A DNA stretch of 64,000 nucleotides, taken from assembly GCF_014803405.1 (NCBI RefSeq), contig NZ_JACYFG010000032.1:62001-126000 (forward strand), given 5' to 3'. The translations under genes were made by a program, and so were the position numbers. Shown here piece after piece: positions 2,179-21,550 of this stretch. This stretch comes from Pelagicoccus enzymogenes (GTDB lineage: Bacteria; Verrucomicrobiota; Verrucomicrobiia; Opitutales; Opitutaceae). Each line of letters begins with the position of its first letter. Positions within the stretch are counted from its first letter, which is position 1. The notes beneath the pieces are model-generated. The model was not told the DNA's origin, did no database searches, and worked only from the letters and a program-made list of their open reading frames with translations.

Positions 2179-5100
2179 CTAGAAATCGAATGAGTTCGTC
2201 AGCTTGAATGTAGTTGGCACGTTGATACCGTAGACAATCGTTTCGTCGGGGCGGAGGCGGATAGGACGGAGGTCGTCGCCTTGCTTGAAGAGGTTGTCTA
2301 TATTGAGCTGGATACGCCAGTTGACCTTGTCGCCGTGGAGCTTGCCGCGGTAGGCGAAGCTCATGCCGCCCGTAACGATCGCATCGCTCTCGAGTGGATT
2401 GTTGAAGTCATCCTGGACGATGATGATTTCCCCTTCGTCAAGCACGCCGTTGCGGTTGATGTCAGTGGTGGGGAATCCCTCTGGCAATGAGTCTGCATCA
2501 CGCACGATCAGGTTGTAGCCGAATACCTTGCCGCTTTCCCAGCGGAGGTTAGTGCCGACCGAGAAGCCCTTAAGCATGCCTTCGCGGAAGCTGTAGTTCG
2601 CGGTTAGGCGGGCATTGTACTCGGAGATGCCAGGGCCTGATGTTCCCTCGCTGCGAATCGCGTCCAAGAGTTCTGTGCCAAAGCGATTGTACAGGTTGGT
2701 CACGAGCAGGTTCGAGTCTGGCGCTGGCGTTTCATCGGGTCCGTACACGGTCGAGTCGCTGTCGCCGTTGGTGTGGAAGCCACGGTCAAAGAACTGTTGC
2801 CAGTACTCGGAGCGCAGTCTGACGTACTCGATGGACTGGCGCTCGATGTTGGTGAGCTCGTTCTCAAGTCTCGAGACGTTGGCGGAGATGCGTAGGTTCT
2901 TGTTTGGATTGTAGGTCGCGCTCAGTTCCCAGCCCTCGGATACGGAGTCACGAGTCACGCCCAAGTTGTTCAGGCGTTCGTACTCGTAGGTGTATTCAAT
3001 AGTTGGGGATCCATCGGGGTTGGTCTGCGGCACCCCGTCCACGACGAGTTGCTGGCCGGTTCCCAAGGCTGGGTTGACGGTGGTCAAGACGCCATCGATC
3101 AGACGGATTTCCTGCCAGTCCGCGATGGTGAAGGCAGTTGCTTCTCCCCGCTGTCTCGCTAGGTCTTGTTCTTTGATGACATCGAGGACGTCGTTCTCGA
3201 AGTTCGGGATACGTTGCTCAAGACGGATAGCGGCGCCAGTGCCGAGTTGGTCTTTTTGGCGTGTGTCGTAGAAGTTGAACTTTAGGTCCAGCTTGTCCTC
3301 AAACAAACTCATGCCGAAACCGTATTCTTCGGTAAGGCCAGATGCGGGAGGATTGGGTCGTCCAAAGGAATCTGTGGTAGGACGGGTGAGGGCGAAGTTC
3401 TCCGATTCGTTGTAGAAGAAGCGCAGCCATGGTGTGGCGTGGAAGACGAGACTGTTGGTGCGGAGGGCCACCGTGGTGCGGTTTAGGACCGATGGGGCTG
3501 AGAGATCGAACTCGTCGATTCTCGAGCCTGATCCGCCTATTCCGCTGTCGAAGTCAATTTGGGTGGCGTCTACTGGATTGGTGAGGAAGAACGAATCGTT
3601 TTGAACGGTGTCCTTGCGGTAGCCGAGGGTAGCCACGATGCGATTGTTCCAGAAGAAGCTCTGCAGCGAGGCACCCCATGCGCCTGCATCGATCGAGGTG
3701 AGTTCGGCGCTGTTGCCGATGACGTATTGTCTCCATGTGACCGGGTTGGGCGCTACTTGCCAACTGCCTCGTGGCGAGGCGCCGGTAGCGTTGGTTGCGG
3801 TGAAGCCGTAATAGGGCAGCGAATCGCCTAGGTTGGGAACCGTGGTATCGGGAAGATCCGTTATGCGCAAGGCGGTGTCGCCGGGCTGTACTGCGTCCCC
3901 GATATACCATATCGGCACGAACCAGCGGCCGCTAGGTAGGTTTTCGGTACTGCCTTCGAAGGCTCCCGGGGTGTAGTCGGCATATCCCGAGGCGCGGTAT
4001 GTGTGGGTTTGGTTCGAGTTGCCGGACATGAAGCCGGTGAGGCGATGATTTCCGAGGAAGCCGAGTTTATCCGACTTTTCCGAGAAGTCGAAGTCGTAGT
4101 TGAGTTGCGCGAGGAAGCCTTCGCTTTCGACGTTTCGGTAGCTCCCGATTGTGCGTCCGTGGAAGAATGGGCGCAAGTAGTTCGGGTTGGGCGTGCGCGC
4201 GTCGTTCTCTGGTGTGAATGGAAGGCTAGGATCGAGCAGGATTTGTTCGAGGAATGCTTGGTTGTTGGCAACCTGGATCCCGTTGCTCACGTTGGTTTGG
4301 GCGAGTGCCACTGCTGCTTCAAGCGTCAGGTTGGTCCTTACCGGCAAACCGTTTGCTCCGGTGAGTAGGCTTGGATTCGGGATCGAGCCTGGGAGGTACT
4401 TGTTGATGTCGATCGACACCGCTTGGGCTTGGGCGAGCGGCGCGAAGGTCTGCTCGGCGGTGTAGCTTTCCTTCAAGTACGAGAGGTTGAAGAAGAGGTC
4501 CTCGACGATCTTCTGCTCGAGGTTGAAGCCGAACTTCTGGTTCTTGACCTCGCGTTCGTTGCCCGGGAGGGCGCCGATCTCGTAGTCGAGGAAGGGGAAT
4601 ATTCCTTCGTCCGTGACCTGTGGGTCGACGAAGGCGCCTTCTCCGGGCGCAGCGTCGTTTCCGAATGAGCTGCGGTGAAAACGGAGCTGGGCGCGAGGGT
4701 TGTTGTTGTTGCCGGCGCTGAGGTTGGGAAGGAGTGTTCCGTAGCTGGTAAATTGTCCGCCAAGGGGAGAATCCCAACCATTTTCGGGAGTGTAGTAGCC
4801 GGTGAATCCGTTATTACGCGTATCCATGAAACGACGGTAGTTGCCTTCGTTTACCAAGAAATTGCCGTTTTCGTCGGTAGCCACTCTCGAAGCGATTGGG
4901 ATGTCGGGAGAAGGCCCTGAATTACCATTGCTCGTGGCGCTCCACGAGGAGTCATAGACGAGATTGTCGTCGAGGTACTGCTGGAGCGGCTTGGTGGCTC
5001 CGGTGGGGTTACCATCTATATCCAGGATGTTTACCAAACCGCCGTTGGCAGCGGCATCAGCGTGGGCGCGATTGTATTCCCTCAACCAAGCGGAAGTGTT

Positions 5101-6409: not shown

Positions 6410-6955
6410 TTAACGGAGGCGCCTCCTTGCCGTGGCAATTGCCAGTACGCCGAGACCGAGCAGGGCAACGGTAGGACCGGAATCAGGTACATCGGCAGCT
6501 CCGGAATTGGTCGCTGCTGTGACGATCACCAATTCGCTGGATACGCTTGCTCCGGGTGTGAAAAAATCCCCTATGCCTCCAATAAGTGGATACGGCGGTG
6601 CGAAGGGACTGGCGCCTACGTCGAAGGAGAAGAAGAAGTTTGTGGCAGCCATGCCTTCTGTCGCTCCGTCGCCGATGGTTCCGTCCATGTCGTAGACGAG
6701 ACTGAAGAGGTCGACGAAAAGGAGGTCGAAAGCTGCTACAAGGGAATTGCCGCTAAAAGACATGGAGAAATCGCTGACCTCGCCAGAGAAGCCGTCGATC
6801 TGTCCGTCCGTATTGATATCCTCTGCGGTGAAGGATCCCGTTACTACGGCTCCTTCTTCGTAGCCACCTTGGGTGAAATCGTAGCTGATGCTAACTGCTT
6901 GGGAAGAAGTGGCCGCGAGGGTTAGAATCGCGACGAAGTAGAGTTTTTTTATCAT
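6410..6955 (-). CDS. VPDSG-CTERM sorting-domain protein
   Basis: This 181-residue exported protein starts MIKKLYFVAILTLAATSSQA, a Sec signal peptide cleaved after about residue 20. It ends with VPDSGPTVALLGLGVLAIATA followed by RRRLR: the tripartite signature (VPDSG motif, hydrophobic segment, basic tail) of VPDSG-CTERM, a PEP-CTERM variant known mostly from Verrucomicrobia and Lentisphaerae and thought to be handled by an exosortase. The middle (21-150) is Gly/Asp/Phe-rich with no recognised catalytic motif, probably a beta-sandwich. It would be a surface or matrix protein anchored or released after sorting. The gene lies 151 bp downstream of the giant lyase-like gene and just upstream of receptor 2, with its own terminator. 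A link to polysaccharide use is inferred only from position. Confidence 0.85.
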   Translation of the reverse strand: MIKKLYFVAILTLAATSSQAVSISYDFTQGGYEEGAVVTGSFTAEDINTDGQIDGFSGEVSDFSMSFSGNSLVAAFDLLFVDLFSLVYDMDGTIGDGATEGMAATNFFFSFDVGASPFAPPYPLIGGIGDFFTPGASVSSELVIVTAATNSGAADVPDSGPTVALLGLGVLAIATARRRLR

Positions 6956-7106: not shown

Positions 7107-8519
7107 TTACTCGAACTTGAAGCTTTCGATGCTGTATTGGCTTTGGCTGCTTCCTACGAATACGAGATAGAGATCCGGTGTGCCTGAGGGCGTGGATACA
7201 AGATTCGCCGAGAAGGACTGGTACGCTTCGGGTGCTCCTTGTGTTTGATCTATGGATACGCTGGCAATGAGTTCCCCCGAGGGGCTGCCGAGGCGGAACT
7301 CTACTTGCCCCGCAACTCCCGTACCCGCCTTGGCGGAGAGGGTGACCGAGTTAGCTGGCGAGCCGAACTTGAATCTGCCGAACTTCACCCAAGTGCCGTC
7401 TTGGACATTGACCAATTTGTCATCGATCGGAGCAATGCGGCTGTTGTCCTCTGGGTGGGATTCGTCGTCGTACGCGGCCGCGTTGATGAGCGTGCCAACC
7501 TCTGAAGGGACGTAGTCGTAGATGACGTGAAGCGTCGGAGGCGTGCCCGTCGACTCGCGGCTGTCGATGAAGGTTTGCTGGTTGCCGTCGTTCTCGTCGA
7601 CGACGATGAGGCTGAGTTTGCCGTCGAGCAGGTTCTCGATGACCGCATCCGTCACTTCAATCGTGTGGATAGAGTTGTCGTCTGAACGCAGAAAGGTGAT
7701 AGTGCCTTCGAGCACGGCATCGGGAGCGATGACGGTCGTGTCGTCCATGGCGTGGCTGGTCTCGGAGTTCCAGCTGAGGTCCTCTTCGGTCCAAGCGTCG
7801 TTGGTGATGGAGTAGACGTTGACGCTGCGGTCGCCGGTGCCTTCCGCGACTCTGCCGCGGAGGTAGAGGTCGGAAGTGTGGATGCTCGTCGACGGGATCT
7901 GATCGAGGTCGAACTTGAGGTAGGACATCCGGTCGAAGGAGGCGTTTCCGGCATCCTTTACGGCCAAGCGTTCACTGGTTGCGTTGACCTGGTTGGCGCT
8001 GTTCCCCCCGCGGATGAAGCCGTCGGCGATGGTGACGAGATCGAGTTCTTCGATGCCGCCAGGCGCTTCCGTGAAGTGGAAACTCTCGATTTCGAATCCA
8101 CCTTGAGGGAAGACGAGGTAGAGGTCCTGGATACCGCTGGCACGATCAAGATCATCGGTTGAGAACATCTCGAAAACGCCGGGCTCCAGCATCGCTGGGC
8201 GGCGCACCAGCATGACTGTACGGTAGTCGCTCCAGCTCAAGCCGCCGGCTCTGAGCATATCGCTGCCGGGACCGGTTGGGAGGATCTCGACGCTTCCGAT
8301 GAGCGGGCCGTCAGGGGCTAGCTTGCGCAGCTCGATAGAGCTTGCTTGGAAGCCTTTGTTCGCGGCCGAGATCGTGAAGGAAGAGACACCGCTGCCGAAG
8401 TCGAAGTTAGGGAAGCAGATCCAAGTACTGGCTCCTTGAATCGAGAGCTTGTCGTCAGCGATCTTGATGCGTTGGGCGGACTTGCCTTCCGAATCGGTGG
8501 CGTAGTTGATGGCGTAGAT
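7107..8519 (-). other. C-terminal binding block: CBM6, DNRLRE/CBM96-like, CBM6
   Basis: Residues 3540-4009 of the giant protein. The two CBM6-like modules align with each other (TWICFPNFDFGS and TWVKFGRFKFGS; both contain DLYLVF near the end) and flank a DNRLRE-type module with YLKFDLDQIPS and LHVIYDY ends. They probably bind the polymer or cell-wall glycans and keep the catalytic propellers on substrate. Confidence 0.7.
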
Positions 8520-11500
8520 CGTCTCGCCCACGCTACCAGACGAGGATTCGCTGCCGCTGATGCCGACGTTGTCGAATTCGATCCATTTATTGTTGGAGGA
8601 CTCGAAGGTGAGGCGGAAGCTAACGGTGCTGGATGCCTCGAGAGTACGGTCGTCGAGGGAGCTCAGGTCGATATCGACGTCGCCCTTCCAGCCGCCGCCG
8701 AAGCCGTTGGCTACGGAGCCAGTGGCGACGACACCTGGAGAAAGCGCTCCACCGTCGACGATTTCCAAAGTCCAGCTGGCGGTTGGGCTGCCGTTTCTTT
8801 GGATGGCGTCGAAGTGGAAGGCTTCGAGCTCGTAGCCGGTGCCGTTTGTTTCCGTCACGATCAAGTCGATGGACTTGGCTGTGTCGGTTTGCACGCGGTA
8901 GCCCGTGTCATTGTAGCTGGCGTCGGTTCCAAAGGTAGGATCGGCGGCGGCGATTTCGGCAGGGAGGCTGCCGAAGGTGCCGTCTTCGCTGGCTCCACGG
9001 AAGTTGTGGGTCCAACCGGAGGCGATGTTTGCAGTAGTGCCGGTGGCGCCGTTTTCAGTCGTCGCTGGAGAAGGGGCGCCGCTGCCAGCCCATTTCTCCC
9101 AGCCGATGAGCAGGGTAGTCGGGGCAGTGTCTGGTTCGGGTTCTGGGTCCGGATCGACGGCTCCTGCTTCGACGGTGATGACAACAGTGTCCTCGAAGGT
9201 GTCGTCGGCAGTGGTGAGGGTGAGTTTCACTTCGTGGACGCCGACACCGAGGTCGATGAATGCGGTGAGCCCTTGTGCGACTTCCACACCGTCGATGGAC
9301 CAGCTGACTGCTGTCGGTACTATGTCCTCACGGACAAGGGCCTCGAGGGTTACGGTTTCGACTCCGTCTCCGTCGTCATCGGTAGCGGTCTGGGCGGCGC
9401 CCGCGTAGATGGGGCGGCCATCGATGTCGAGGTCGATGATCTGGAGGTAGGTGGTGCGTTCGTCGCCGCTGCCAGGTTCCTTGAGGTAGTAGTAGAGGAT
9501 ACCGTCAGAGATGTAGGGAACGCCCTTGTCGAAAGTCCGTCCTTCTGTAGGTGCGTAGACGGTCTGCCAGTTGTTGGTGCCGCCGACGGTCATTTGGATG
9601 AAGGGGCGGTTGTTCTTGATGGTGATCATGTAGACGTTGTTACCCGCTACGTAGAGTTGCTCGCCGCCAGCGAAGTCGGTGGTGACTACGAAATCTCCTA
9701 GGCCGCGGGCTCGGTAGGCGTGGAGGTACTTGGTGACGTTGTTCTCAAGATCCCTAACGCGAGCGATGATGTGTTCGTCTCCTCGATCAGTGACGTTTAC
9801 GTCGAAGCTGCCTACCATGTGGACTTTGTCTTTTTGGGTGGTTTCAACGTAGTCGCCTGGCTCGAAGACCTTGATCTTGTCGGACTGGACCAAGGGGAGG
9901 GTGAAGGGTTCGCCCTTGTGGTTTTTCCAACCAGTCTTGCCGCTTTGATCGTCGGAATAGGCGTAGTAGACGCCGTTCTGGTAGATGTACTTGTCGTCGT
10001 TGATCGCGGCGCGCTGCTGGAAGGCCATGCGGATCTTCCCGTCAGCGTATTTCATTTCTCCATACACTCCGAAGTTGTAAGGGCTGCCTTGATTTTTGGC
10101 GTTCATGACACCGAAGCCGGTGAGCTCTTCCCACTTGGAGACGCCATCGTACTTCGAGAAGAAGTGGGCACCATTGTTGTTGCCTCCCTTTCTCATGTAC
10201 ATGAAGAGCTCTCCTCCGTCGTTGAGGAAGAAGGTCGGGTAGGTGAGACCTGACCACATATCATGGTCCTCGACGCCAGTCATGGTCTTGTGCTTGTAGT
10301 CGCCATCTGGAGACTTGACGAAGAGACTCAAATTGAAGTCGGCGTCAGGCACTTCGGCAGCGTCGGCCACTGAGTAGGAGTACCTGAAGTAGTCTTCCGC
10401 AAGGCTGCCGTTGGACGGCTTGGTGGCACTGTAGGCGTGCATGTCATACAGCAGGTGGATGGTACCATTGAGCGGGCTGATCGCGACCGCGATGGTGTTG
10501 TGGCTCTCGCCGATGTTTGGATTATTCTGGTATCCATTATGTCGATGCGGGAATTCGATGGTGGCCATAGACCCGGTCTGCGTGTTGAGGCGGGTGAGCA
10601 TGACGTGGCGGTCCTCCTTGCCTCCGCGGTACCATGTCATGAAGACGTAGTGCTTGTAGGTCTTGATACAGTCGCCGTGTGGAGTGATGGTGTTGCCGAA
10701 CTTGTAGTCGTAGTCGTCGGCGCTGTTGGATGCCGAGCTAGAACCGACTTGTCCACCATCGAAGAAGAGGGCCTTGTCGGTGATGTGCGTCTCAGACTGG
10801 AGCGTGACCAGCGGGAGGGTTGTCGGTCCGTCGTCGTCAGGGTTGCCGTCGTCGGGATTTCCATCGTCCGGGTTGGAGACTGCCTCTGTGGCCGAGAAGG
10901 TGAATACGGAGATTGAGGACGAGCTGCCGCCCTTCAGGCTGACTGCGGTGAAGCGGATCTTGCTGGTGAGGATGTTGGCGAGCGGTATGATTTCGTCGTC
11001 GCTTGGGTCGTTGCCAGAAGCTGCTGTCTGCCACGCGGTACCGTCCCAGTATTCGATGAGGTACGCGTCGATGCGGTCGAATGCCTCCTTGATGCGAACG
11101 GAAGTGATCGTTTTCTCTGTGCCGAAATCAAGTTGCAGCCACTGGCCGGTTCCGTTGCCGACGGAGTTCCAACGGGTTAGGTCGTCGCCGTCATTGGCGA
11201 GTTCGACAGGGCCATCGCCATCTGCGTTTGGCGTTTTCGCAGAGGAGGCGGTTATGGTCGCGTCTGTAATGGTTTGGCCACTACCGCCGTCTCCACCGTT
11301 GTCCTCGGGTGTCTCGATGATTTGGATTTCATTGATGCTGACCCAGTCGTTGGAGTAGCCGGTAGCTCCGGTAACTGTTAAGCGCAGGTATTGAGCTTCG
11401 GTTGGGGCAAAGCTGTGCTCGAAGGGGGCGGTTCCGGCGCCGGTGCGGCTGGCGACTTCCACGAAGCCATCGGTAGGGGAGTTGGAGAGTTCCACAGTGT

Positions 11501-14500
11501 AGTGGTAGGCTCGGCCTTGGTAGGTGAAGACCTTTACCCCTTCGATGCTGCGTGGTTCGCTGTAGTCGAGTACCACGGATTTTGGATACACTTGAGCGCT
11601 CCAACGGTAGTCGTCGCCAGTGTTTCCGTCGAAGAGATTCGCGGCGACGTTTGGCGATTGTTCGGCATCGACGGAGACGACGGAAACGCCTTCCTGCGGG
11701 TCGCCTTCTGATGGAGTGTCGTCACCCGGAGGCGTGCCGGTTCCGGAGATCTTGAGGGAATCGAAGTTGTAGCTTCCGGCGGTGGAGGCGACCTTGATGG
11801 TTTGCACTCCCTTGCTGAGTGTGATCTCGGCGGTGCTTGTCCGGAAAACGGTCAAGCTTGGGCTCTTGGTGAGGTTGATATCTGCCAAGGTGGTTGAACC
11901 TTGGGAAATCTTCAGCTTGGAACCTGTTGTCGGTGCCGCGGTACGGACTTCGACAGTGTACGTGCCGGCGTTCGGAGCGTCTACGGTGTACTCTGCGTAT
12001 TTGCCAGGAGAGAAGGCATTCAGGTAGAAGATGGAGTTACTCCAGCGGGTTACCTTCGTGGCGGAGCTCTTGGAAGTGAAGTGCTCGGCTTCGATTGTCT
12101 TTGGTAGTACGTGCGTCTTTGGATTGACCGTGAGCGTCTGACTCGCTTGGGCAGGGAGGAAGTAGTCATCGCCTTCGTCCGAGACGGTGATGGTCGCGGT
12201 GCCTGGGCCGAGGAGATGGCGTACGATGTTGCTCCAGACAACGGCTACCTGATTGTTCGGAGCGACGTAGCGAAGCTTTGCGTTCGGATTGTTGCTGCTG
12301 ACTTGCAGCGTGAATTCCGCATCGCCGGATTCTTTTGTCGGAATCGGATCGAAGGTGATCACTTGAACGCGCTTTGGCACGGTGAGTTCGTGGCCGACGA
12401 TAGGAGCGGCGTTGTAGGTTCCGTTGCCGAGCTGCAAGGCGTTAATGGTGGTTTTTCCAGCACGCTTGACGACTACTGAGTTTCCGACGACTTCGGCGAC
12501 TTCGGTGTCGGTGCTCTCGAAGACCACCGGTAGGCCGGAGCTTGCATTGGCGCTTAGGCCGATGTTGCCGCTATCCCAAACGTATTCAGAAACTGGAAGC
12601 GTGAAGCTGATGCTCTGATTCGATTTGGAGGCGTCTGGTGTGATAGTGAGCGAGCGAACCACGTTTGCGGCTGCGTCGAATTCGCCATCGCCAGCTTGGC
12701 TGGCGATGATGCTGCAGGTGCCGACGCCCATGATCTGGACCTTGTTGCCGTCCACGATGCGAGCGATGTTCGGATCGGAGGATTCGAAGCTGACAGGTAG
12801 CCCGGAGGTGGAGCTTGCGGTTAGCTCGAAGTCATCCGCACTTTCGATCTTGTTGGGTAGAGGATCGAAAGCGATGCTCTGGTCCGCATAGTCGGTCTTG
12901 TTGATGTCGAAGACGTAGCAGTGGATGGTGACTTCGTCGCTTGCTTCCTTCTCGGCGAAGACGGCGACGATCTTGCCATCTTCCATCTGAACTTGGCTCT
13001 TCTGAACGTTGATGCCGGTGTCGATGGCGAAGTCGGTGCGCCAGTCGAGCTCGCCCGCCAAGGTACTTTGCACGGAGAGCTTTCCGCCATTAGTATTCAC
13101 CTTGTACATACGGTTGCCATAGAACTCTCCAATGGCGCCCTTGGCTCTAAAGACACTGAACTCGGATTCGCCCGCTGTTCTCAGGTAGGTGAAGTCGTCT
13201 GTGCCTTTAGGATTCACGCGAAGGTAGAGATCATTTTTGGGAGATACCGCTGCTTGAGGACCTCCCGACCAACCCTCGGTTGTTGGAACACTGCGGGGAT
13301 CAGCGATTAGGAAAGGAGCGTGGTCGATAATAGGCAGATCGTAAGACTTTCCATCGATGGTGGTGGCAGCCCCGTCCATACGAGGACCGAGATTTACGAT
13401 ATAGACGCCTTCATTGATTCGGGTAGGCGACTCGGCCCACCTTACGGAGTAGACATAGTGGAAATCTCCGTTGAGGAGGTAGGGAGCTCCATAGGCGTAG
13501 TTGCGCTCGCCTTGAGTCACGTCAGCTCCGGTGCCTTGAATGATCATCTTCTCGTCCGACCAAGCGTTTCCATCGTAGTAGCTGATCATCATGTTGCCGC
13601 CTACGGCGGAGCCCAGGCGACGTTCGAAGAAGAGTTCGCCTTGGTCGTTGTTGATCAGTTTGGGATACGTGACGCCGGTGACTTTCTTGCCCGGGACGAG
13701 GTAGTCGCGCTGCGGCAGGAAGTTTGCTGCGGTGAATTCAGCGTCTGGAGCGAAGGCCACGTTTTTCGCGGACACGATGTAGTTGAGGTCCTCGTTGTGA
13801 TGGTCATACATGATGTGTATGGTGCCATCGATCGGGCAGACGCCGATGTTGGTGGTGAGGTGGGTGTCGCCCTTGCCGCCGACTAGGCTGAGTTGACCAG
13901 GCAGTTCGACGTGCACCCAATCGCCTTCACCGATCTTCTTGCGAGAGACCATCAGGGCACGGTCGGAGAATCCGCCTCGGTACCAAGTGTAGAAGACGTA
14001 TCCATTTACTACCTTCACGCAGTTGCCGTGCGGGTTGATGGCGGCTCCGTAGTGATAGGGCTTGGGATCGTCTGCCTTCCAGAAGAAGAGGGCGTCGTCG
14101 GTGACGGTGGTGCTCTCGTTTAGGGCAACGAGTCCAGTTGGTTCTACTTCATCCGGATCCGGTACATCGTCGCCAGAACCGCTTCCGCTACCTGTTATGC
14201 CCAAATCGAAAACCTGTAGGTAGGTGGTACACTTGTCGCCGTTGTTGCCGGTTTCCTTTAGGTAGTAGTAGGCTTTCCCGTCTTCGACGTGGACGATGCC
14301 CTTGTCGAAGGTGGGGCCGGTGGTACCTTGGTAGACTTCCTGGAAGTCGCTAGTGCCGCCGGCCGTCTTGACGATGTTTACGCGGCCATCCTTCAGGCCG
14401 ATGACGAACACGTCGTTGCCCGCGGCGTAGAGTTCGCTGCCGGCATTGTACTCGACGGTGGTGAACTCGGTGTCGCCCGCTGCGCGGTAGGTGTGCAGCT

Positions 14501-17500
14501 TTTTGGTGAATCCGAATTCATCGTCTCGAATCTGGCTGACGAAGTGCTCGTCGCCCGCGTCGGTAACGGTGAAGTCGAAGCCTCCCACCATGTAGGCCTT
14601 GTCCGTCTGGGTCGTTTGCACCCAATCGCCCGGCTCGGCGATCAAGACGAGGTCGGCATCGTAGATGGGAGTCTGGAGCGGGTTGCCGTTGGCGTCCTTC
14701 CATTGGTTCACTCCGGCGGGATCGTCGGAATAGGCGTAGTAGATGCCGTTCTGGTACTTGTACTTGTCGGTCCTGTTGTTCTCGCGTCTTTGGAAGGCGA
14801 CGCGAATCTTGCCGTTCAAGAATTTGTAGTCGCCATAAGGGTTCCAGTTGTAGGCGACTGTATCCTTGCCCTCGATCGGGCTAGGTTTGCCGGCTTGTTG
14901 GCTATTGTTGAAGGAGTAGTAGCCGTGCCATTGTCCCTCTCCGTCGTAGCGGGCGAGGAGTTGCTTGCCATTTTCGGAGAAACCATGGCGATTCTTCATG
15001 AGCAGTTCGCCTTGGTCGTTGGTGAAGAAGCCTGGGTAAGTCAGCAACTTGGTCGAAGCGTCATCGGTAATGCCGGGAAAGCGCAGGTGCTTGTAGTGGC
15101 CAGCCTCGGAATTGACGAACTGATCAATGGTGAAATCGTCGTCGGAAACGGTCGCTGCCCCGGCTACGGTGTAGGAGTAGCGGAGGTAGTCGTCAGGGTT
15201 CGCTCCACCGTGGCCGTTGCGGTGCATGTCGTACACGAGATGCACGGTCTCGTCCTTAGGGCAGATGCCGACGGCAATGGTGTTGTGCGTTTCGCCGATC
15301 CACCACTTTCCTTTGTATCCAGTGTGTTGATGCGGAAACTCGATGGTCTTCATTACTCCCGTCTCGGTGTTCAAGCGAGTGAGCATGACGTGGCGGTCGT
15401 TTTCTCCGCCGCGGTACCAGCTCATGAAGACAAACTGTTTGTAAGTCTGGATACAATCACCGTGGGGGGTGAGAGTGCGTCCGTAAACGTAGTCGTAGCC
15501 GTCCGGATTGTTGGCTGAGTGGCTGAGCGCGACCTTGTTCCCGTTGAAGAACATGACTTCGTCGGAAATCTTGGTTTCGGAGACAAGGGTGACTTCTCCT
15601 GAACCGCCGCCGTCAGGTGGAGTGGAACCGTCGTTGCCCGAGCCTCCGGATCCGGAATCGCCATTACCTGAATCGCCGTTGCCTGAATCTCCGCTGTCGG
15701 CGGTCTCTGGGACGGAGCTGATGGCGACGTTATCCAGCTCGAAGTGGCGGGAGTCGGACGATTCGAAGGTGAGACGGAAGGTTGCGGAGCTCGAGGCTTC
15801 GAGGGTCGCGTCGGCGAGGGAAGATAGGTCTACATCGACGTCGGCAAGAGTGTTGGCGTCTCTACCGTTTGCGAGGATACCGCTGGCGACTTGTCCTGCT
15901 GTCAGAGCTCCGCCTTCGAGGATTTCCAAGGTCCAAGGGTAAGGGCCGTTGGCGCTTTCGGCACGAGCGATAGCGTCAAAATGGAAACCTGTGAGGTCGA
16001 TATCGACGCCGTTGGCTTCGGTGACCATGAAGTCGATGGAGCGGGCTCCGGTGCCGGAGCTGCGGTAGCCGGTGTAGTGCAGACTTGGGTCTTGGCCGTG
16101 GGTCAAGTCGGCGGCTGCGAGTTCGGTTGGCAAACTACCGAAGGTGCCGTCCTTGCTGCCAGCTCGGAACTCTTGTTTCCAGCTGGCGTGGAGGTTTGGA
16201 ACTGTGCCGGTGAGGCCGACCTCGAGATCGGCGTCTGTATCCGTCCAGTCATCCCAACCGACGAAGGCGGGCTCTGGGGCGGGTCCTGCGTTCACCGCAG
16301 TCGCCGAGAAGGTGAAGAGGGAGATCGAGGAAGTGCTGCCTCCTTTCAGGTTGACGGCAGTGAAGCGGATCTTGCTGGTAGCGATACTGGGTAGCGGTAC
16401 GGTTTCGTCGTCGCTAGGGTCGAAGCCGGTCGCGGCTGTTTGCCAAGAGCCGCCGTCCCAGTACTCGATGAGGTAGTCGCCAATGCGGTCAAAGGCTTCC
16501 ACGATGCGAACGGAGGAGATTGTTTTTTCCTCAGCGAAATCGAGCTGGATCCATTGCCCTGGTCCGGGAGTATTGGAATTCCATCGGGTGGTGTCGTCGC
16601 CGTCGTTAGCGAACGCGGCCTCTACACCCGGCTTTTGGCTGGATGCGCTGATGGTGGCGTCTGTGACGAGGTATTCTTCAGAACCTGCGGGGAGAGGGAC
16701 CTTCACCAAGAGGTCAAATGAAAGTTCGCTGGTCAGCCCGCGGTTGTCTGTCGCAACGATCTTGATCACGTAGGTTCCTGCTGCGAGGCCGCCGAGCTCG
16801 TCTTCGTTGACGGTTCCGGCTTGCCCCCAAAGGAAGGGGTCGATGGCGATTTCGCGGACCAGGACATCGTCGACAAATAGGCTGACGCCGGTGAGGTCGC
16901 CGTCGAGGTCGCCTACGTTCGCTTCAACGCTGAAGGGTTCGCCTTCTTCGATTTCCGTGTTTCCTGTTGGGTCTACCAGTTCGATGTCTGGAGCGTAGGC
17001 GAGAGCGTTGACCGAAAAGTCCCAAAGGGAAATCGATGATGTAATGCCAGCTTTAAGGCTGACAGCGGTGAAGCGGAGCTTGTTGGTTTGAAGATTCGGT
17101 AGTGGGATAATCTGCGGGTCGCTGGGATCCCTGCCAGCTGCAGCTTGCTGCCATGCGCTGCCGTCCCAGTAATCGAGGAGGTATTCGTCGATGCGGTCGA
17201 AGGCTTCTTTGATTCGAACCGAGCGGAGGGTGCGTACGGCGCCGAAGTCCAGTTCGAGCCACTGGCCGGTGCCGTTGCCGACGGAGTTCCAGCGGGTGGA
17301 GTCGTCGTTGTCGTTGGCGTCTTGGGCGAGGCGGGTGGGGTCGGTCGTCTTTTCGGAGGAGGCGGTGATCGAAGCGTCCAAGATGGTGTACTCAACGGCG
17401 CCGAATGGGAGCGGGCTGCCTTGTACGGTCAAGCTGAAGGCTGTGGCTGCGGTCAGGCCATCGTTGTCGGTGGCGATGACTTCGACGTCGTAGGTGCCAT

Positions 17501-19136
17501 CGTCGAGGCCAGTGAGTTCGTATTCGTGGGCGGTTCCTGCTTGCCCCCAGATATAGGGCGCGGAGGCGAGTTCGCGCACGAGAACGCCGTCGATGTAGAG
17601 AGCGACGCTGGTTATGGTGCCGTCTGCATCGCTGGCGTTTGCTTCGACGCTGAGGCTGTATCCAGTCGTCACGTCAAGGTCGTCTGTCGGAGAAACGAAA
17701 GCGACCTCTGGCCTGATTTCTGGAGATTCGATTGTGGTGGGGGAGATAGGGAGCGTGATAAGTTCGAGGGCGCTGCTGGTCGCTGTATCCAGATCACTAG
17801 GACGGCGTTGGGCGAGGATGAAGAGCTGGTCGCCGCTGTCGGAAATTTGGGCAGTGGCGTTGAGGTAGGGCGCGCTCCCGCTATCGTAAATGGTTTCCCA
17901 AGTGCCCCAGTTGTCGGCGCCTTTGTTGGCGCCGTATACACGGAGTTGGTTGGCAGCGATGGTTACGATGTAGAGGGTGTTGTTGGCGTCGTTGGTCGGG
18001 TCCGCGTAGATCTTGGGGCGGATGCTGGAGCTGGCGCTGAGCTCGTTTTCGATTATAGCTGTACTGCCTTCCGCCTTGTAGTAATGGAACATCCGCGTTT
18101 GGTCCGCGTCGTTCAAATGGCGGAAGAGCATGTGGACGCCGCCGTCGCTATCGATCGCTTGACCCGACTGGTTGTTTACCTTCTTAGCGTAGGGGACGTC
18201 CTTGAACTTGAGGTCAGGGGAATCGAGGCTCATGGCTCCGGCGACTTGTGAATCGAGGCGGTTGAACCAAGTGTTTCCCCCGTCAGCGCTGTAGGCGTAG
18301 TGGAGGTCGTGGTTGGTGACGAAGCCGTTTTCGGTGCCCGCGTTTTCACGCCAAGTCCAGCTGACGTGGGTCTTGCCGTTGCGGTGCCCAATGTCGTTAA
18401 AGTAGGCGTTGCGGTTGCTGTTGCCGGGCTGGCCGTTGTTGGTGCTGTCGGGGTCGGTGTAGTCGCCGATCTTGCCGTTTACGATGCGCGTGCGAGGGGT
18501 CCAGGTCTTGTCGCCGTTGTAGGTGGCGATGAAGCTGTCCGCGTTGCCGGAGCCGCCGTCGTCTCGCCAGACGACCTGCAGTTTGCCGTCCTTGCCCATG
18601 AACATGCGGGGGTAGCAGACGCGGGTCAGCTCTTCGCCGGGAGCGAGAAACGCTTGCTCGGGCTCGAAGAGATTGGCCCCAAAATTCGCGTCGATGGCGT
18701 CGACGGCGTTGGGATCTTTCGTTACGACGTAGCGCAGCCTGTCCGCGTGGAGTCCCCAGATGATATGCAGGCGACCGTCGCTGGGAGAGGCGGCGATATT
18801 GGCGGTGCGGTGAGAGTCGGGGTCGGTGGAATCGTGCGACGGAGAAAATTCGCTTTTAAGCCAAGTGTCCGTAGTGTCGGAGGCCGAGCGGCGGGCTACG
18901 ACGAGCGAGCCGTCTTCATCGTAGTATACGATATATACATACGGGCCAGCGAGCAGGACCGCGTTTTGCTGGTGGGCGGCGGAGATGGAACTGTAGGAAA
19001 ACTCCCGAACGCCATTCGGGAATAGTTGTGCGCTTGCATCGATGGGATCGACGTGAGCCGAACCGGCGTCTACAGCAAGGGATGTGGTCGCAGACAGTGT
19101 TGCCATAGCGACAACGGACAGTGCTTTTTTTATCAT
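7107..19136 (-). CDS. Giant secreted multi-propeller polysaccharide lyase-like protein (4009 aa)
   Basis: The signal peptide is 1-21 (cut near LA-VDAG). Modules in order: BNR_4-like propeller A 36-470; Ig-like 476-572; F5/8C 580-712; Ig-like 714-812; F5/8C 818-946; unknown beta module 953-1142; Ser/Gly/Asp linker; propeller B 1181-1647; propeller C 1666-2080; three Ig-like repeats 2086-2338; CBM6/35-like 2346-2466; F5/8C-like 2484-2609; F5/8C 2622-2750; Asp/Pro linker; propeller D 2771-3240; PKD-like 3244-3325; unknown module again 3342-3527; CBM6 3540-3688; DNRLRE/CBM96-like 3698-3874; CBM6 3880-4009. All four propellers keep a His pair 21 apart and a Tyr-Arg pair 16 apart, as in propeller lyases PL24/PL25. 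BNR_4 folds also occur in GH145 and PL42, so the exact activity is uncertain. The likely role is extracellular depolymerisation of ulvan or a similar polyuronate. No anchor is seen. Confidence 0.9.
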   Translation of the reverse strand: MIKKALSVVAMATLSATTSLAVDAGSAHVDPIDASAQLFPNGVREFSYSSISAAHQQNAVLLAGPYVYIVYYDEDGSLVVARRSASDTTDTWLKSEFSPSHDSTDPDSHRTANIAASPSDGRLHIIWGLHADRLRYVVTKDPNAVDAIDANFGANLFEPEQAFLAPGEELTRVCYPRMFMGKDGKLQVVWRDDGGSGNADSFIATYNGDKTWTPRTRIVNGKIGDYTDPDSTNNGQPGNSNRNAYFNDIGHRNGKTHVSWTWRENAGTENGFVTNHDLHYAYSADGGNTWFNRLDSQVAGAMSLDSPDLKFKDVPYAKKVNNQSGQAIDSDGGVHMLFRHLNDADQTRMFHYYKAEGSTAIIENELSASSSIRPKIYADPTNDANNTLYIVTIAANQLRVYGANKGADNWGTWETIYDSGSAPYLNATAQISDSGDQLFILAQRRPSDLDTATSSALELITLPISPTTIESPEIRPEVAFVSPTDDLDVTTGYSLSVEANASDADGTITSVALYIDGVLVRELASAPYIWGQAGTAHEYELTGLDDGTYDVEVIATDNDGLTAATAFSLTVQGSPLPFGAVEYTILDASITASSEKTTDPTRLAQDANDNDDSTRWNSVGNGTGQWLELDFGAVRTLRSVRIKEAFDRIDEYLLDYWDGSAWQQAAAGRDPSDPQIIPLPNLQTNKLRFTAVSLKAGITSSISLWDFSVNALAYAPDIELVDPTGNTEIEEGEPFSVEANVGDLDGDLTGVSLFVDDVLVREIAIDPFLWGQAGTVNEDELGGLAAGTYVIKIVATDNRGLTSELSFDLLVKVPLPAGSEEYLVTDATISASSQKPGVEAAFANDGDDTTRWNSNTPGPGQWIQLDFAEEKTISSVRIVEAFDRIGDYLIEYWDGGSWQTAATGFDPSDDETVPLPSIATSKIRFTAVNLKGGSTSSISLFTFSATAVNAGPAPEPAFVGWDDWTDTDADLEVGLTGTVPNLHASWKQEFRAGSKDGTFGSLPTELAAADLTHGQDPSLHYTGYRSSGTGARSIDFMVTEANGVDIDLTGFHFDAIARAESANGPYPWTLEILEGGALTAGQVASGILANGRDANTLADVDVDLSSLADATLEASSSATFRLTFESSDSRHFELDNVAISSVPETADSGDSGNGDSGNGDSGSGGSGNDGSTPPDGGGSGEVTLVSETKISDEVMFFNGNKVALSHSANNPDGYDYVYGRTLTPHGDCIQTYKQFVFMSWYRGGENDRHVMLTRLNTETGVMKTIEFPHQHTGYKGKWWIGETHNTIAVGICPKDETVHLVYDMHRNGHGGANPDDYLRYSYTVAGAATVSDDDFTIDQFVNSEAGHYKHLRFPGITDDASTKLLTYPGFFTNDQGELLMKNRHGFSENGKQLLARYDGEGQWHGYYSFNNSQQAGKPSPIEGKDTVAYNWNPYGDYKFLNGKIRVAFQRRENNRTDKYKYQNGIYYAYSDDPAGVNQWKDANGNPLQTPIYDADLVLIAEPGDWVQTTQTDKAYMVGGFDFTVTDAGDEHFVSQIRDDEFGFTKKLHTYRAAGDTEFTTVEYNAGSELYAAGNDVFVIGLKDGRVNIVKTAGGTSDFQEVYQGTTGPTFDKGIVHVEDGKAYYYLKETGNNGDKCTTYLQVFDLGITGSGSGSGDDVPDPDEVEPTGLVALNESTTVTDDALFFWKADDPKPYHYGAAINPHGNCVKVVNGYVFYTWYRGGFSDRALMVSRKKIGEGDWVHVELPGQLSLVGGKGDTHLTTNIGVCPIDGTIHIMYDHHNEDLNYIVSAKNVAFAPDAEFTAANFLPQRDYLVPGKKVTGVTYPKLINNDQGELFFERRLGSAVGGNMMISYYDGNAWSDEKMIIQGTGADVTQGERNYAYGAPYLLNGDFHYVYSVRWAESPTRINEGVYIVNLGPRMDGAATTIDGKSYDLPIIDHAPFLIADPRSVPTTEGWSGGPQAAVSPKNDLYLRVNPKGTDDFTYLRTAGESEFSVFRAKGAIGEFYGNRMYKVNTNGGKLSVQSTLAGELDWRTDFAIDTGINVQKSQVQMEDGKIVAVFAEKEASDEVTIHCYVFDINKTDYADQSIAFDPLPNKIESADDFELTASSTSGLPVSFESSDPNIARIVDGNKVQIMGVGTCSIIASQAGDGEFDAAANVVRSLTITPDASKSNQSISFTLPVSEYVWDSGNIGLSANASSGLPVVFESTDTEVAEVVGNSVVVKRAGKTTINALQLGNGTYNAAPIVGHELTVPKRVQVITFDPIPTKESGDAEFTLQVSSNNPNAKLRYVAPNNQVAVVWSNIVRHLLGPGTATITVSDEGDDYFLPAQASQTLTVNPKTHVLPKTIEAEHFTSKSSATKVTRWSNSIFYLNAFSPGKYAEYTVDAPNAGTYTVEVRTAAPTTGSKLKISQGSTTLADINLTKSPSLTVFRTSTAEITLSKGVQTIKVASTAGSYNFDSLKISGTGTPPGDDTPSEGDPQEGVSVVSVDAEQSPNVAANLFDGNTGDDYRWSAQVYPKSVVLDYSEPRSIEGVKVFTYQGRAYHYTVELSNSPTDGFVEVASRTGAGTAPFEHSFAPTEAQYLRLTVTGATGYSNDWVSINEIQIIETPEDNGGDGGSGQTITDATITASSAKTPNADGDGPVELANDGDDLTRWNSVGNGTGQWLQLDFGTEKTITSVRIKEAFDRIDAYLIEYWDGTAWQTAASGNDPSDDEIIPLANILTSKIRFTAVSLKGGSSSSISVFTFSATEAVSNPDDGNPDDGNPDDDGPTTLPLVTLQSETHITDKALFFDGGQVGSSSASNSADDYDYKFGNTITPHGDCIKTYKHYVFMTWYRGGKEDRHVMLTRLNTQTGSMATIEFPHRHNGYQNNPNIGESHNTIAVAISPLNGTIHLLYDMHAYSATKPSNGSLAEDYFRYSYSVADAAEVPDADFNLSLFVKSPDGDYKHKTMTGVEDHDMWSGLTYPTFFLNDGGELFMYMRKGGNNNGAHFFSKYDGVSKWEELTGFGVMNAKNQGSPYNFGVYGEMKYADGKIRMAFQQRAAINDDKYIYQNGVYYAYSDDQSGKTGWKNHKGEPFTLPLVQSDKIKVFEPGDYVETTQKDKVHMVGSFDVNVTDRGDEHIIARVRDLENNVTKYLHAYRARGLGDFVVTTDFAGGEQLYVAGNNVYMITIKNNRPFIQMTVGGTNNWQTVYAPTEGRTFDKGVPYISDGILYYYLKEPGSGDERTTYLQIIDLDIDGRPIYAGAAQTATDDDGDGVETVTLEALVREDIVPTAVSWSIDGVEVAQGLTAFIDLGVGVHEVKLTLTTADDTFEDTVVITVEAGAVDPDPEPEPDTAPTTLLIGWEKWAGSGAPSPATTENGATGTTANIASGWTHNFRGASEDGTFGSLPAEIAAADPTFGTDASYNDTGYRVQTDTAKSIDLIVTETNGTGYELEAFHFDAIQRNGSPTASWTLEIVDGGALSPGVVATGSVANGFGGGWKGDVDIDLSSLDDRTLEASSTVSFRLTFESSNNKWIEFDNVGISGSESSSGSVGETIYAINYATDSEGKSAQRIKIADDKLSIQGASTWICFPNFDFGSGVSSFTISAANKGFQASSIELRKLAPDGPLIGSVEILPTGPGSDMLRAGGLSWSDYRTVMLVRRPAMLEPGVFEMFSTDDLDRASGIQDLYLVFPQGGFEIESFHFTEAPGGIEELDLVTIADGFIRGGNSANQVNATSERLAVKDAGNASFDRMSYLKFDLDQIPSTSIHTSDLYLRGRVAEGTGDRSVNVYSITNDAWTEEDLSWNSETSHAMDDTTVIAPDAVLEGTITFLRSDDNSIHTIEVTDAVIENLLDGKLSLIVVDENDGNQQTFIDSRESTGTPPTLHVIYDYVPSEVGTLINAAAYDDESHPEDNSRIAPIDDKLVNVQDGTWVKFGRFKFGSPANSVTLSAKAGTGVAGQVEFRLGSPSGELIASVSIDQTQGAPEAYQSFSANLVSTPSGTPDLYLVFVGSSQSQYSIESFKFE
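8556..9113 (-). repeat. Second copy of an unassigned ~186-residue module in the giant protein
   Basis: Residues 3342-3527 repeat residues 953-1142 (DNA 15711-16280). Shared landmarks are an opening GW--W, DGTFGSLP, TGYR, FHFDAI, DLSSL and a closing RLTFESS. I do not recognise the family. The predicted beta-rich pattern and Asp/Asn content suit a binding or spacer module. Confidence 0.6.
9417..10826 (-). other. Propeller module D (lyase-like catalytic signature)
   Basis: Residues 2771-3240. Signature residues are H2820 (HGDC), H2879 (GESH), H2900 (YDMH), Y2966 (TYP) and R2982. It is the closest relative of module B; both have WYRGG and DRHVMLTRLN. All candidate active-site residues are present, so it is likely active. 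Confidence 0.7.
10887..11273 (-). repeat. F5/8 type C module, third copy
   Basis: Residues 2622-2750, nearly identical in sequence and DNA to the copies at 17001-17399 and 16299-16685 (shared ITASS, RWNS, GQWLQLDFG, EAFDRID, YWDG). Discoidin folds of this kind usually bind galactose, uronate or sulfated sugars. Confidence 0.75.
12897..14141 (-). other. Propeller module C (lyase-like catalytic signature)
   Basis: Residues 1666-2080, about 415 residues, shorter than B and D. Signature residues are H1703 (HGNC), H1759 (GDTH), H1780 (YDHH), Y1824 (TYP) and R1840. It is diverged from B and D around the cleft (SDRALMVSRKK instead of DRHVMLTRLN), suggesting a different subsite preference. Confidence 0.65.
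14196..15596 (-). other. Propeller module B (lyase-like catalytic signature)
   Basis: Residues 1181-1647. Signature residues are H1225 (HGDC), H1284 (GETH), H1305 (YDMH), Y1367 (TYP) and R1383. It is separated from module C by only a short Gly/Ser/Asp linker (1648-1665), so B and C form a catalytic pair. Confidence 0.7.
15711..16280 (-). repeat. First copy of an unassigned ~190-residue module in the giant protein
   Basis: Residues 953-1142, repeated at 3342-3527. Each copy borders a propeller module through a low-complexity linker: this one sits before B, the second after D. No family assigned. Confidence 0.6.
16299..16685 (-). repeat. F5/8 type C module, second copy
   Basis: Residues 818-946 of the giant protein, with ITDATIS-like start, RWNS, GQWIQLDFAEEKTI and SISLFTFSATA end. 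It follows an Ig-like spacer just as the first copy does. Confidence 0.75.
17001..17399 (-). repeat. F5/8 type C module, first copy
   Basis: Residues 580-712, preceded by an Ig-like spacer (476-572). The Ig-F5/8C unit is repeated at once (714-946), indicating duplication of the two-domain unit. Confidence 0.75.
17727..19031 (-). other. Propeller module A (typical BNR_4)
   Basis: Residues 36-470. It has the landmarks of the BNR_4 family: DSHRTANIA, HIIWGLH, RVCYPRMF, VVWRDDGGSGN, TWRENAGTENGF and TNHDLHYAYS. The signature residues H109, H130, Y175 and R191 keep the spacing seen in B-D, although the rest is only distantly similar. It may have a different activity (lyase, or a GH145/PL42-like exo-enzyme). 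Confidence 0.7.
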
Positions 19137-19691: not shown

Positions 19692-21266
19692 TCAGCTATG
19701 CCGAGTGGCGGCTTCCGCTTCTCGTATTTCCTCAAGGGTAAGCATGGAGCGCTGCCCGAGTCGACGTAGGATGTTGAATTCGTCACGGCTCTTGTCGATT
19801 TCGTTGCGGGCGTAGTCTGGCCCTAATGCGCCGATTGAGGGCTGGAGCGTTGGAGGGTCTTGGAAGAGCAAACCATCGTTCGGATCACTTGGGAACTCAG
19901 CCTTGGGGAAGCGAGCCCAGTCGTCGCCTTCGATTGCTTGATCGTAGCCGTCTTTCTTGAAACGGTCGATGGCAAGCTGTCTTACGCTGGCCAATACGTC
20001 TGCGTAGTCGGAGTCGTTGGCAAGATTGACGCTTTCGCAGCCATCCTTGTAGAGCCATTCCTTGTCGTCAGGAGCGCTGTATATGTACTTCCAGTCCTTG
20101 TTGGCGACCATGTACAGTCCGAGTTGGTTCTGGGAAAACTGGCTGTGCACGAAACGTTCGCTGGGATCTCTGTCCTGCAGGCGTTGGAGGCTGATTCCCT
20201 CGATGGTTTCATTGACCGAACCACCGGCGATCTCTAGGAAGGTCGGGAACAGGTCGAGCAGGGACGCGGCTTGGCTGGTTTTTGCTCCGGCTTCGAAGGT
20301 GCCGGGGAGTCGCGCAAGCATCGGAACCTTAACTGAAGCGTCGAGCATGGAGCGCTTGCCGTAGCAGCCGAAGTCGCCGAGCATCTCTCCGTGGTCCGAA
20401 GAAAAGACGATCAGTGTATTGTCGATTTCAGGACCGAGGGCGTCGAGAACGCGTCCGATGTGGAAGTCTAGGTGCGAGACGACACTGTAGTAGGCCGCTC
20501 GGATCATTCTGGTCAGATGTTTGGACTCTCCGGAGTCCATGTACTTGTAGCGACACTGGACTTTGCTCCAGAAGTTCCGTTGGTCTTCGTAGTCTTCTGG
20601 CAAATACGGACTATCCATCTCGTGCATACGGTAGAGGCGAGACCAAGGCACGGGTGCTTCGAAAGGGGGGTGGGGCTTGATCCAGCTGCTCCAGAGGAAA
20701 AAGGGCTTTTCTTTGTCCCTGTTTTTGAGGAACTCGATCGAGCGATCTGCCACCCAGGCGTTGTTGTGGAGCCTATCGGGCAGTTGCGAGGGCTGGGGTA
20801 GGTAATAATATTCACTGCGGAATCCATACGGATCCTGGACGTGCTCGTATCCATTTTCCGAGAGATAGTCGCGGTAGTCGTCTCTGGCTGATTCGCCCAT
20901 GATCTCCTCGGCGTGCTCGCGGGTTTGGAAGCCCCAATCCCCTTTCGCCTTAACGAAATGCATCTTGCCGATGCCATGGGTTTGATACCCGAGCTCGTTG
21001 AGGCCGTCCATGAAGCTGCCTCGGTCGCAGCTGATTGGGAGGTTGTCAACGCAACCGGTTTGGTGAGGCGGCGCTCCGCAGGTCAGGGCATGGCGGGCCG
21101 GCATGCAGACAGGGCTCGGCGTGTAGCAGTGGGTGAAGGCCGTTCCCTCGCGAACCAGGCGATCGATGTTTGGGGTCTTGATTTGGCTGTTGCCAAGGGC
21201 AGCGATGCAGTCGGCACGCAGTTGGTCGGTGAAGATGAAAAGGATGTTCGGTCGGGATTTTACCAT
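19692..21266 (-). CDS. Type I sulfatase, no signal peptide (sulfatase 1)
   Basis: A 524-residue arylsulfatase-superfamily enzyme (CAZy/SulfAtlas S1) that hydrolyses sugar sulfate esters. NILFIFTDQLRADC at 7-20 carries the first metal-binding Asp. SPVCMPARHALTCG holds the maturation motif C-x-P-x-R with Cys54, which must become formylglycine. IVFSSDHGEMLGDFG supplies the second metal site (Asp-His). The protein begins directly with MVKSRPNILF, so unlike the two other sulfatases here it lacks an export signal and should act in the cytoplasm on imported, partly trimmed sugars. Length is normal. It is transcribed away from the GH78 operon; the divergent spacer is 284 bp to the GH78 start. The S1 subfamily and the sugar position attacked cannot be read from the sequence. 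No sulfatase-maturating enzyme is in the window. Confidence 0.93.
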   Translation of the reverse strand: MVKSRPNILFIFTDQLRADCIAALGNSQIKTPNIDRLVREGTAFTHCYTPSPVCMPARHALTCGAPPHQTGCVDNLPISCDRGSFMDGLNELGYQTHGIGKMHFVKAKGDWGFQTREHAEEIMGESARDDYRDYLSENGYEHVQDPYGFRSEYYYLPQPSQLPDRLHNNAWVADRSIEFLKNRDKEKPFFLWSSWIKPHPPFEAPVPWSRLYRMHEMDSPYLPEDYEDQRNFWSKVQCRYKYMDSGESKHLTRMIRAAYYSVVSHLDFHIGRVLDALGPEIDNTLIVFSSDHGEMLGDFGCYGKRSMLDASVKVPMLARLPGTFEAGAKTSQAASLLDLFPTFLEIAGGSVNETIEGISLQRLQDRDPSERFVHSQFSQNQLGLYMVANKDWKYIYSAPDDKEWLYKDGCESVNLANDSDYADVLASVRQLAIDRFKKDGYDQAIEGDDWARFPKAEFPSDPNDGLLFQDPPTLQPSIGALGPDYARNEIDKSRDEFNILRRLGQRSMLTLEEIREAEAATRHS

Positions 21267-21453: not shown

Positions 21454-21486
21454 ATGAGTGTCTATTGTCTGCAGGGCTCGTCTTAG
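21454..21486 (+). other. Candidate leader peptide ORF (10 codons)
   Basis: ATG 21454 opens MSVYCLQGSS and stops at 21484-21486. An AGAAG box sits 5 bases before the ATG, and the stop is 12 bases before the strong terminator at 21499-21538 that precedes GH78. This arrangement resembles an attenuation leader but has no run of a regulatory codon, so it may be chance. Confidence 0.25.
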
Positions 21487-21498
21487 GTTAAAATTCTT

Positions 21499-21538
21499 GC
21501 CGCACGCTCGCGGTCATCGCGGGCGTGCGGCTTTTTTT
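21499..21538 (+). terminator. Intrinsic terminator in the 5' leader of the GH78-GH3-MFS operon
   Basis: GCCGCACGC (21499-21507) pairs with GCGTGCGGC (21523-21531), with an inner CGCG/CGCG pairing, and is followed by seven T (21532-21538). It ends 12 bp before the ATG at 21551 and no plus-strand gene precedes it, so it either stops a short RNA or attenuates the operon. Confidence 0.85.
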
Positions 21539-21550
21539 GATACCCTTCCC

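Follow-up and report, generated by a model that had tools for sequence, protein, structure and literature searches.

A predicted four-propeller lyase array on a single 4009-residue chain in an ulvan-type locus of Pelagicoccus

Ulvan is a sulfated rhamnose-uronate polymer of green algae. The ulvan lyases characterised so far come from two phyla, according to an excerpt of PMC12915356, and the first multimodular ulvan enzyme, so called in the section of PMC8511951 drawn on here, is P36 of Formosa agariphila. The solved PL24 enzymes LOR_107 (6BYP) and Uly1 (7CZH) carry one catalytic propeller each, and the functional roles of LOR_107 residues used below follow part of PMC11395424, in which N263 and H384 mutants of one PL24 enzyme were inactive. 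FoRham1 (7ESK), a PL42 enzyme whose residue roles are taken from part of PMC8377490, has gum arabic, not ulvan, as its substrate. The locus analysed here lies in a window of 64,000 nucleotides, part of a 254-kb contig in the 6.2-Mb genome of Pelagicoccus enzymogenes, and includes a single frame at 7107-19136 on the minus strand that has an ATG start and 4009 codons and encodes a 433 kDa product. We propose, and consider it likely, that this product is a secreted, covalent array of four propeller lyases that acts on ulvan from a scaffold of eight carbohydrate-binding modules. The reading frame, the homologies, the residue conservation, the separate origins of modules B and D and the occurrence of a PL40 lyase in place of B in a sister species are computed; secretion, the activity of the modules, the substrate and the cooperation of the modules, in series on one chain, we infer.

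Judged by eye, the N-terminus of the giant protein (roughly residues 1-22, 19071-19136) is probably a Sec signal peptide, and all parts of the protein are encoded on the minus strand. Module A (residues 36-470, 17727-19031), a BNR_4 propeller placed on the PL42/GH145 side by sequence, fold, Pfam and tree, is followed by Pfam matches to Big_7 (476-553, 17478-17711), an F5/8 type C domain that we take to be CBM32-like (589-693, 17058-17372), a further Big_7 (716-791, 16764-16991) and a further F5/8 type C domain (829-930, 16347-16652), and then by a stretch that we call domain X (copy 1, 951-1145, 15702-16286). Module B (1181-1647, 14196-15596; sequence, Pfam and tree) and module C (1666-2080, 12897-14141; sequence, fold, Pfam and tree) come next, and between C and module D (2771-3240, 9417-10826; sequence, Pfam and tree) Pfam places a CBM_6 (2349-2464, 11745-12092) and two F5/8 type C domains (2492-2604, 11325-11663; 2628-2737, 10926-11255). 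Beyond D lie domain X copy 2 (3336-3530, 8547-9131), a partial CBM_6 match (3569-3622, 8271-8432), a CBM96 (3702-3871, 7524-8033) and a C-terminal CBM_6 (3905-4009, 7110-7424). Eight binding modules thus pass the Pfam cut-offs in addition to the two Big_7 domains (four F5/8 type C, three CBM_6 and one CBM96), which is the number that the preliminary description had estimated. CBM96 was originally reported as alginate-binding (PMC9971899, in part), so the binding modules alone do not point to ulvan. The two domain X stretches, of 195 residues each, match no Pfam family above the cut-off; they carry VGWDDW or IGWEKW near the start, have two aligned copies in the sister orthologue as well, and could represent a binding module not yet described. 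Antisense to the giant gene, at 8346-19025 on the plus strand, there are several long open frames of up to 451 aa, which its codon use probably explains, and directly downstream of it (6410-6955, minus strand) is a gene whose 181-aa product has a VPDSG-CTERM sorting motif.

Four active-site signatures had been described on this one polypeptide, and all 16 of the residues named were recovered when checked in the translated frame: H109/H130/Y175/R191 in module A, H1284/H1305/Y1367/R1383 in B, H1759/H1780/Y1824/R1840 in C and H2879/H2900/Y2966/R2982 in D. The corresponding pattern, H-x20-H with Y-x15-R 40-80 residues on, occurs at exactly four sites in the 4009-aa protein, with Pro directly after the Tyr at each of them. 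Composition-preserving shuffling gave no site in 1848 of 2000 shuffles, one in 137, two in 13 and three in 2, so that four sites were reached in 0 of 2000 (mean 0.08 sites per shuffle). Each of the four modules also scores over the Pfam BNR_4 cut-off. The additional claim that every module keeps a first His does not extend to module A, whose H55 is unconserved in relatives, or to two members of the C clade, both from Catenovulum, which have Arg at that position; in the alignment of 14 A-type sequences the invariant residue is the Gln directly after H55, not H55, which is itself aligned to Tyr26 of FoRham1. All 20 propellers of a broader alignment share His, His, Tyr, Arg and a second Arg without exception, and one of these sequences is a GH145-like protein. 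Both His and the Arg are likewise conserved in GH145 glycosidases, as stated in part of PMC8377490, and hence their conservation in module A alone is no proof of lyase activity. The one-to-one alignment to residues of solved enzymes indirectly suggests that His, Tyr and Arg would meet in one cleft.

Modules B and D are predicted PL24 ulvan lyases. Over nearly their full length B matches Uly1 (E 5.5e-132) and D matches LOR_107 (E 1.6e-152). All seven compared LOR_107 residues (H146, H167, Y243, R259, R320, N263 and H384) are kept in D, and B keeps the first five and is changed at N263 and H384. In a maximum-likelihood tree of 50 rows B and D share a 16-row clade with both solved PL24 enzymes (99/99), within which B falls among Catenovulum and Alteromonas lyases (100/100) and D joins the D of the orthologue and standalone PL24 proteins from this genome and another of the genus (100/99). 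Tandem duplication as the source of B and D was considered and rejected, a clade of B plus D having a p-AU of 1.96e-35.

Module C is only 27-28% identical to B and D and, like B, keeps the first five LOR_107 residues (His, His, Tyr, Arg and second Arg) and is changed at N263 and H384 (5/7). Its AlphaFold2 model (alignment of 19 sequences, mean pLDDT 83.2, pTM 0.87) has PL24 7DRQ as top Foldseek match (E 3.7e-26), and the families rank as PL24, then PL42, GH145 and PL25. The unrooted tree places C in a separate clade of eight rows (100/100) beside the 18-row PL24 group (87/81), where it is joined with the C of the orthologue and three Bacteroidota proteins (100/99). Single-lyase frames of 1062-1079 codons carry its relatives in Prolixibacteraceae (75% identical), in Polaribacter (65%) and in a genome of the Bacteroidales (61%). 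C appears to belong to a separate clade beside PL24, and its lyase activity is predicted from homology. Together with the rejected B/D clade, these groupings indicate that at least B, C and D have separate histories. The protein in Prolixibacteraceae (locus L023, 1679-4864), which belongs to the Bacteroidota, is 75% identical to a verrucomicrobial module, which suggests that the module C lineage has moved between phyla. Another genome of the genus (G127) has a PL24 frame of 505 aa and a PL24-like, lyase-like frame of 487 aa (locus L087); the latter branches immediately outside the remaining 16 PL24 rows (100/99 for all 17) and could be intermediate between the C clade and PL24. For functional study of this clade adjoining PL24 the giant protein offers a first target.

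Module A is a propeller of the PL42/GH145 side and probably, as predicted from sequence, a rhamnose-glucuronate lyase. Its sequence matches FoRham1 of PL42 (2e-25) and four GH145-type structures (E 5.2e-14 to 2.5e-12), among them 4IRT, which we presume to be a GH145 enzyme; no PL24 chain came up among its sequence matches. The AlphaFold2 model, which has weak loops (alignment of 20 sequences, mean pLDDT 73.7, pTM 0.78), finds PL42 7ESK as its top Foldseek match (E 1.0e-20, 22-23% identity in the fold alignment), followed by PL24, GH145 and PL25. Nine of ten compared FoRham1 residues are the same in module A (H85, H105, Y150, R166, S170, Y202, R220, N275 and Q276), the tenth, Tyr26, being His55; Arg331 and Glu381 lie outside the alignment and Asn247, a glycosylation site, was left uncounted. 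In the tree A pairs with the A of the orthologue only (100/100), on a long branch whose deeper placement is weak (77/36), and a clade of A with FoRham1, whose row is partial, is absent from the best tree, its joining not being rejected (p-AU 0.438).

The preliminary description had likened the propellers to the ulvan lyases of PL24 and PL25, of which PL24 stands for B and D and PL25 falls for all four modules, A being nearest to PL42/GH145 and C lying beside PL24. The minimum of three subtypes that it gave for the polypeptide is supported. A PL25 identity of A and C had been suggested by their short, PL25-like spacing of 44-45 residues from His to Tyr and is ruled out by sequence: with pAlt76 PL25 as reference, which itself matches 5UAM at 9e-252, BLASTP gave no match to A or C at E 1, and E values of 0.26 for B and 0.025 for D. 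Structure prediction, which had been proposed as a check, gave lyase-propeller folds for the models of A (best PL42) and C (best PL24), with the PL25 fold 5UAM matched by both (E 1.6e-10 and 4.2e-12) and ranked behind PL24, PL42 and GH145.

The giant gene adjoins a sulfatase gene (19692-21266, minus strand), beyond which are genes for a GH78-type alpha-L-rhamnosidase (21458-24241, plus) and a GH3-type glycosidase (24260-26530, plus). Two unsaturated uronyl hydrolases of the GH88/GH105 type, a type expected to act on lyase products, are predicted from Pfam Glyco_hydro_88 at 56140-57294 and 59286-60449, both on the minus strand. In total the window encodes three sulfatases, two enzymes of the GH78 type, the GH3, two GH2, a GH39-like protein, the two GH88/GH105-type enzymes, transporters and three TonB-plug proteins. 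The contig accounts for 11 of the 16 BNR_4 places of the genome, four of them inside the giant protein. Of the proteins that hold the other seven, four are PL25-like (with 33-60% identity to pAlt76 PL25 across the aligned parts), and the rest are a standalone PL24, one GH145-like protein and one A-like protein. It also has nine sulfatase matches with frames above 450 aa and two fragments, one of them under the cut-off, of 55 sulfatase matches genome-wide. By its likeness to published ulvan loci, as described in parts of PMC12915356 and PMC8511951, the locus appears to be of the ulvan type, with ulvan as the presumed substrate. Also inside the locus (36713-38056, minus strand) is a gene for a 448-aa protein without a Pfam match at E 0.001. 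At locus L081 (12234-15442) a divergent PL25-like frame (34% over 307 residues) with a very long tree branch is followed directly downstream by a standalone PL24 that is 69% identical to module D.

The giant frame occurs in two of eight genomes of the genus. The second is that of Pelagicoccus sp. SDUM812005, where an orthologue matched by query residues 1-4009 occupies L022:362-14221 on the plus strand as one frame of 4620 codons (4561 aa from the first plausible ATG), 83% identical over residues 1664-2616 and 74% over 1-957. Modules A, C and D are present in that order and B is absent; between D and the C-terminal domains the orthologue has instead a CBM96 and a heparinase-II/III-type domain that matches PL40 Uly1040 (9VTK) at E 9.5e-153 and keeps six of its six catalytic residues (N245, W246, Y305, D358, H485 and H487). 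A PL40 relative was found in one of the eight genus genomes, SDUM812005, which has a second PL40 that is 31% identical, and the window's own genome gave no PL40 match. By homology, the two species therefore have four lyase modules each, three in common and one different (B or PL40), and the four-propeller set was found in one species only, the sister having three propellers and a PL40 lyase. After the collinear parts, the best alignment between the two proteins joins residues 920-1649 (domain X and B) to sister residues 2348-3056 (domain X and D) at 52%, which is a sign of domain shuffling.

We searched for related propellers in eight genomes of the genus, the eight genomes behind the loci, 200 genomes of the family (matches listed), 286 of the class (the best six or fewer candidates per genome), 387 of the phylum (best four or fewer) and sets of 299 (best five or fewer), 196 (best eight or fewer), 247 (best six or fewer) and 29 genomes, these sets overlapping. 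Among the matches listed no frame outside Pelagicoccus had two propellers, bearing in mind that draft genomes break long genes, and the longest other propeller frames were of 1452, 1089, 1302 and 1606 aa; those of 1400-1606 aa had one propeller match each, and a few single-propeller frames gave two partial matches (e.g. G1245, 448 aa). A contig scan with six peptide patterns gave 43 loci, and among these the Pelagicoccus orthologue was the one frame to combine two or more modules of the A-D types; the multi-module check covered ORFs of at least 250 aa in 64 loci, of which L006 and L008 likewise show two modules but are fragments of the giant gene itself.

Module A, and perhaps C, might be no ulvan lyase: A would then act, in a PL42-like manner, on a side chain or on another rhamnose-glucuronate polymer, or would be a non-catalytic binding propeller, and we give this a substantial chance that falls somewhat short of even. 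The nearest solved relative of A is the gum arabic enzyme FoRham1, whose rhamnose-binding Asn and Gln are kept, A stands on its own long branch with the orthologue alone, and its signature residues are equally conserved in GH145 enzymes (part of PMC8377490). However, the 14 A-type sequences all keep His, His, Tyr, Arg and the second Arg, and rhamnose 1,4-linked to glucuronate is common to gum arabic caps (for which see the same part of PMC8377490) and ulvan; both points speak against this account. The matches of A to four GH145-type structures could also mean a GH145-type rhamnosidase working on the opposite face of the propeller, but the catalytic His48 of BT3686, on the posterior face of GH145, is aligned (by eye) to Ala63 of module A and the lyase face is complete, so we reject this identity as very improbable.

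The integrity of the chain admits two other accounts. Neighbouring lyase genes could have been fused by an assembly artefact, given a draft assembly of 60 contigs and an orthologue from which module B is absent; yet the frame has no stops or breaks, base composition is even, and an independent genome has an orthologous single frame with the length and identities given above. We take the fusion to be real since the SDUM812005 orthologue is likewise one giant frame, which rules the artefact out and leaves it scarcely any probability. Alternatively, the chain could be a precursor whose acidic, Gly/Ser/Asp-rich linkers are cut by proteases after secretion, so that the four lyases would work independently and their coupling would have no function. 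Low-complexity linkers do stand ahead of modules B, C and D, and related propellers elsewhere are separate, in frames no longer than those listed above. Nevertheless, a second species retains the fusion and the A-C-D order despite a changed lyase set, and standalone PL24 and PL25-like genes are already present on the same contig, and we thus regard a precursor as unlikely.

We therefore return to a covalent lyase array as the preferred reading, in which eight carbohydrate-binding modules and Ig-type linkers would form the scaffold for four beta-propeller lyases. By beta-elimination each propeller would cut an alpha-L-Rha-(1->4)-uronate bond, with the uronate neutralised by the Arg with help from the second His and the Tyr, and the first His both taking the C5 proton and protonating the leaving oxygen. 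B and D would serve as endo ulvan lyases, C as a further ulvan lyase with another subsite preference, and A, by way of a rhamnose pocket like that of FoRham1, would trim chain ends that are rhamnose-capped or less sulfated. Pieces from separate sources would have been joined, and the catalytic set would vary by species, the sister having A, C and D with a PL40 lyase. More tentatively, the protein might be the Pelagicoccus covalent counterpart of a multi-enzyme ulvan complex, in which a conserved scaffold (A, the Big_7 and F5/8 type C repeats, C, CBM_6, D and the C-terminal CBM96-CBM_6) would accept lineage-specific lyases of unrelated folds (a gammaproteobacterial-type PL24 or a PL40 toroid), such that four lyases of complementary subsite preference are kept on a single chain of the heterogeneous polymer. 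The verrucomicrobial four-lyase protein and its natural variant lend themselves directly to testing whether joining lyases of different specificity covalently speeds the breakdown of a heterogeneous sulfated polymer.

The earlier statement that no polysaccharide lyase with four catalytic propellers has been described agrees with the open-licence literature searched, in which we found none, nor any chain of four lyase modules with one exchanged between species. LOR_107 and Uly1 are of the same family as B and D by sequence, with His, His, Tyr and Arg kept, but they have a single propeller where the chain described here has two of PL24 and two further ones, and B departs from them at N263 and H384. 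FoRham1 is the best match of module A in both sequence and fold, with nine of ten compared pocket residues shared; A differs in being bacterial, in its low identity and in having His55 in place of Tyr26. Uly1040 resembles the extra module of the SDUM812005 orthologue down to its catalytic residues, although PL40 has no counterpart in the window's genome. Like the giant protein, P36 of Formosa agariphila (sulfatase S1_25 plus GH78) is a multimodular ulvan enzyme, but as described in part of PMC8511951 it has two catalytic domains and no lyase, and the CelAly-type enzymes (GH5+PL31, PL7+GH16+PL6) similarly unite several catalytic and binding modules on one marine polypeptide, but with at most three catalytic modules, at most two PL domains and brown-algal substrates, according to an excerpt of PMC13235733. 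The parts of the Pelagicoccus protein are of known kinds or close kin to them, and their arrangement as a chain of four lyase modules, one of which is exchanged between species, is, against the literature searched, a new assembly.
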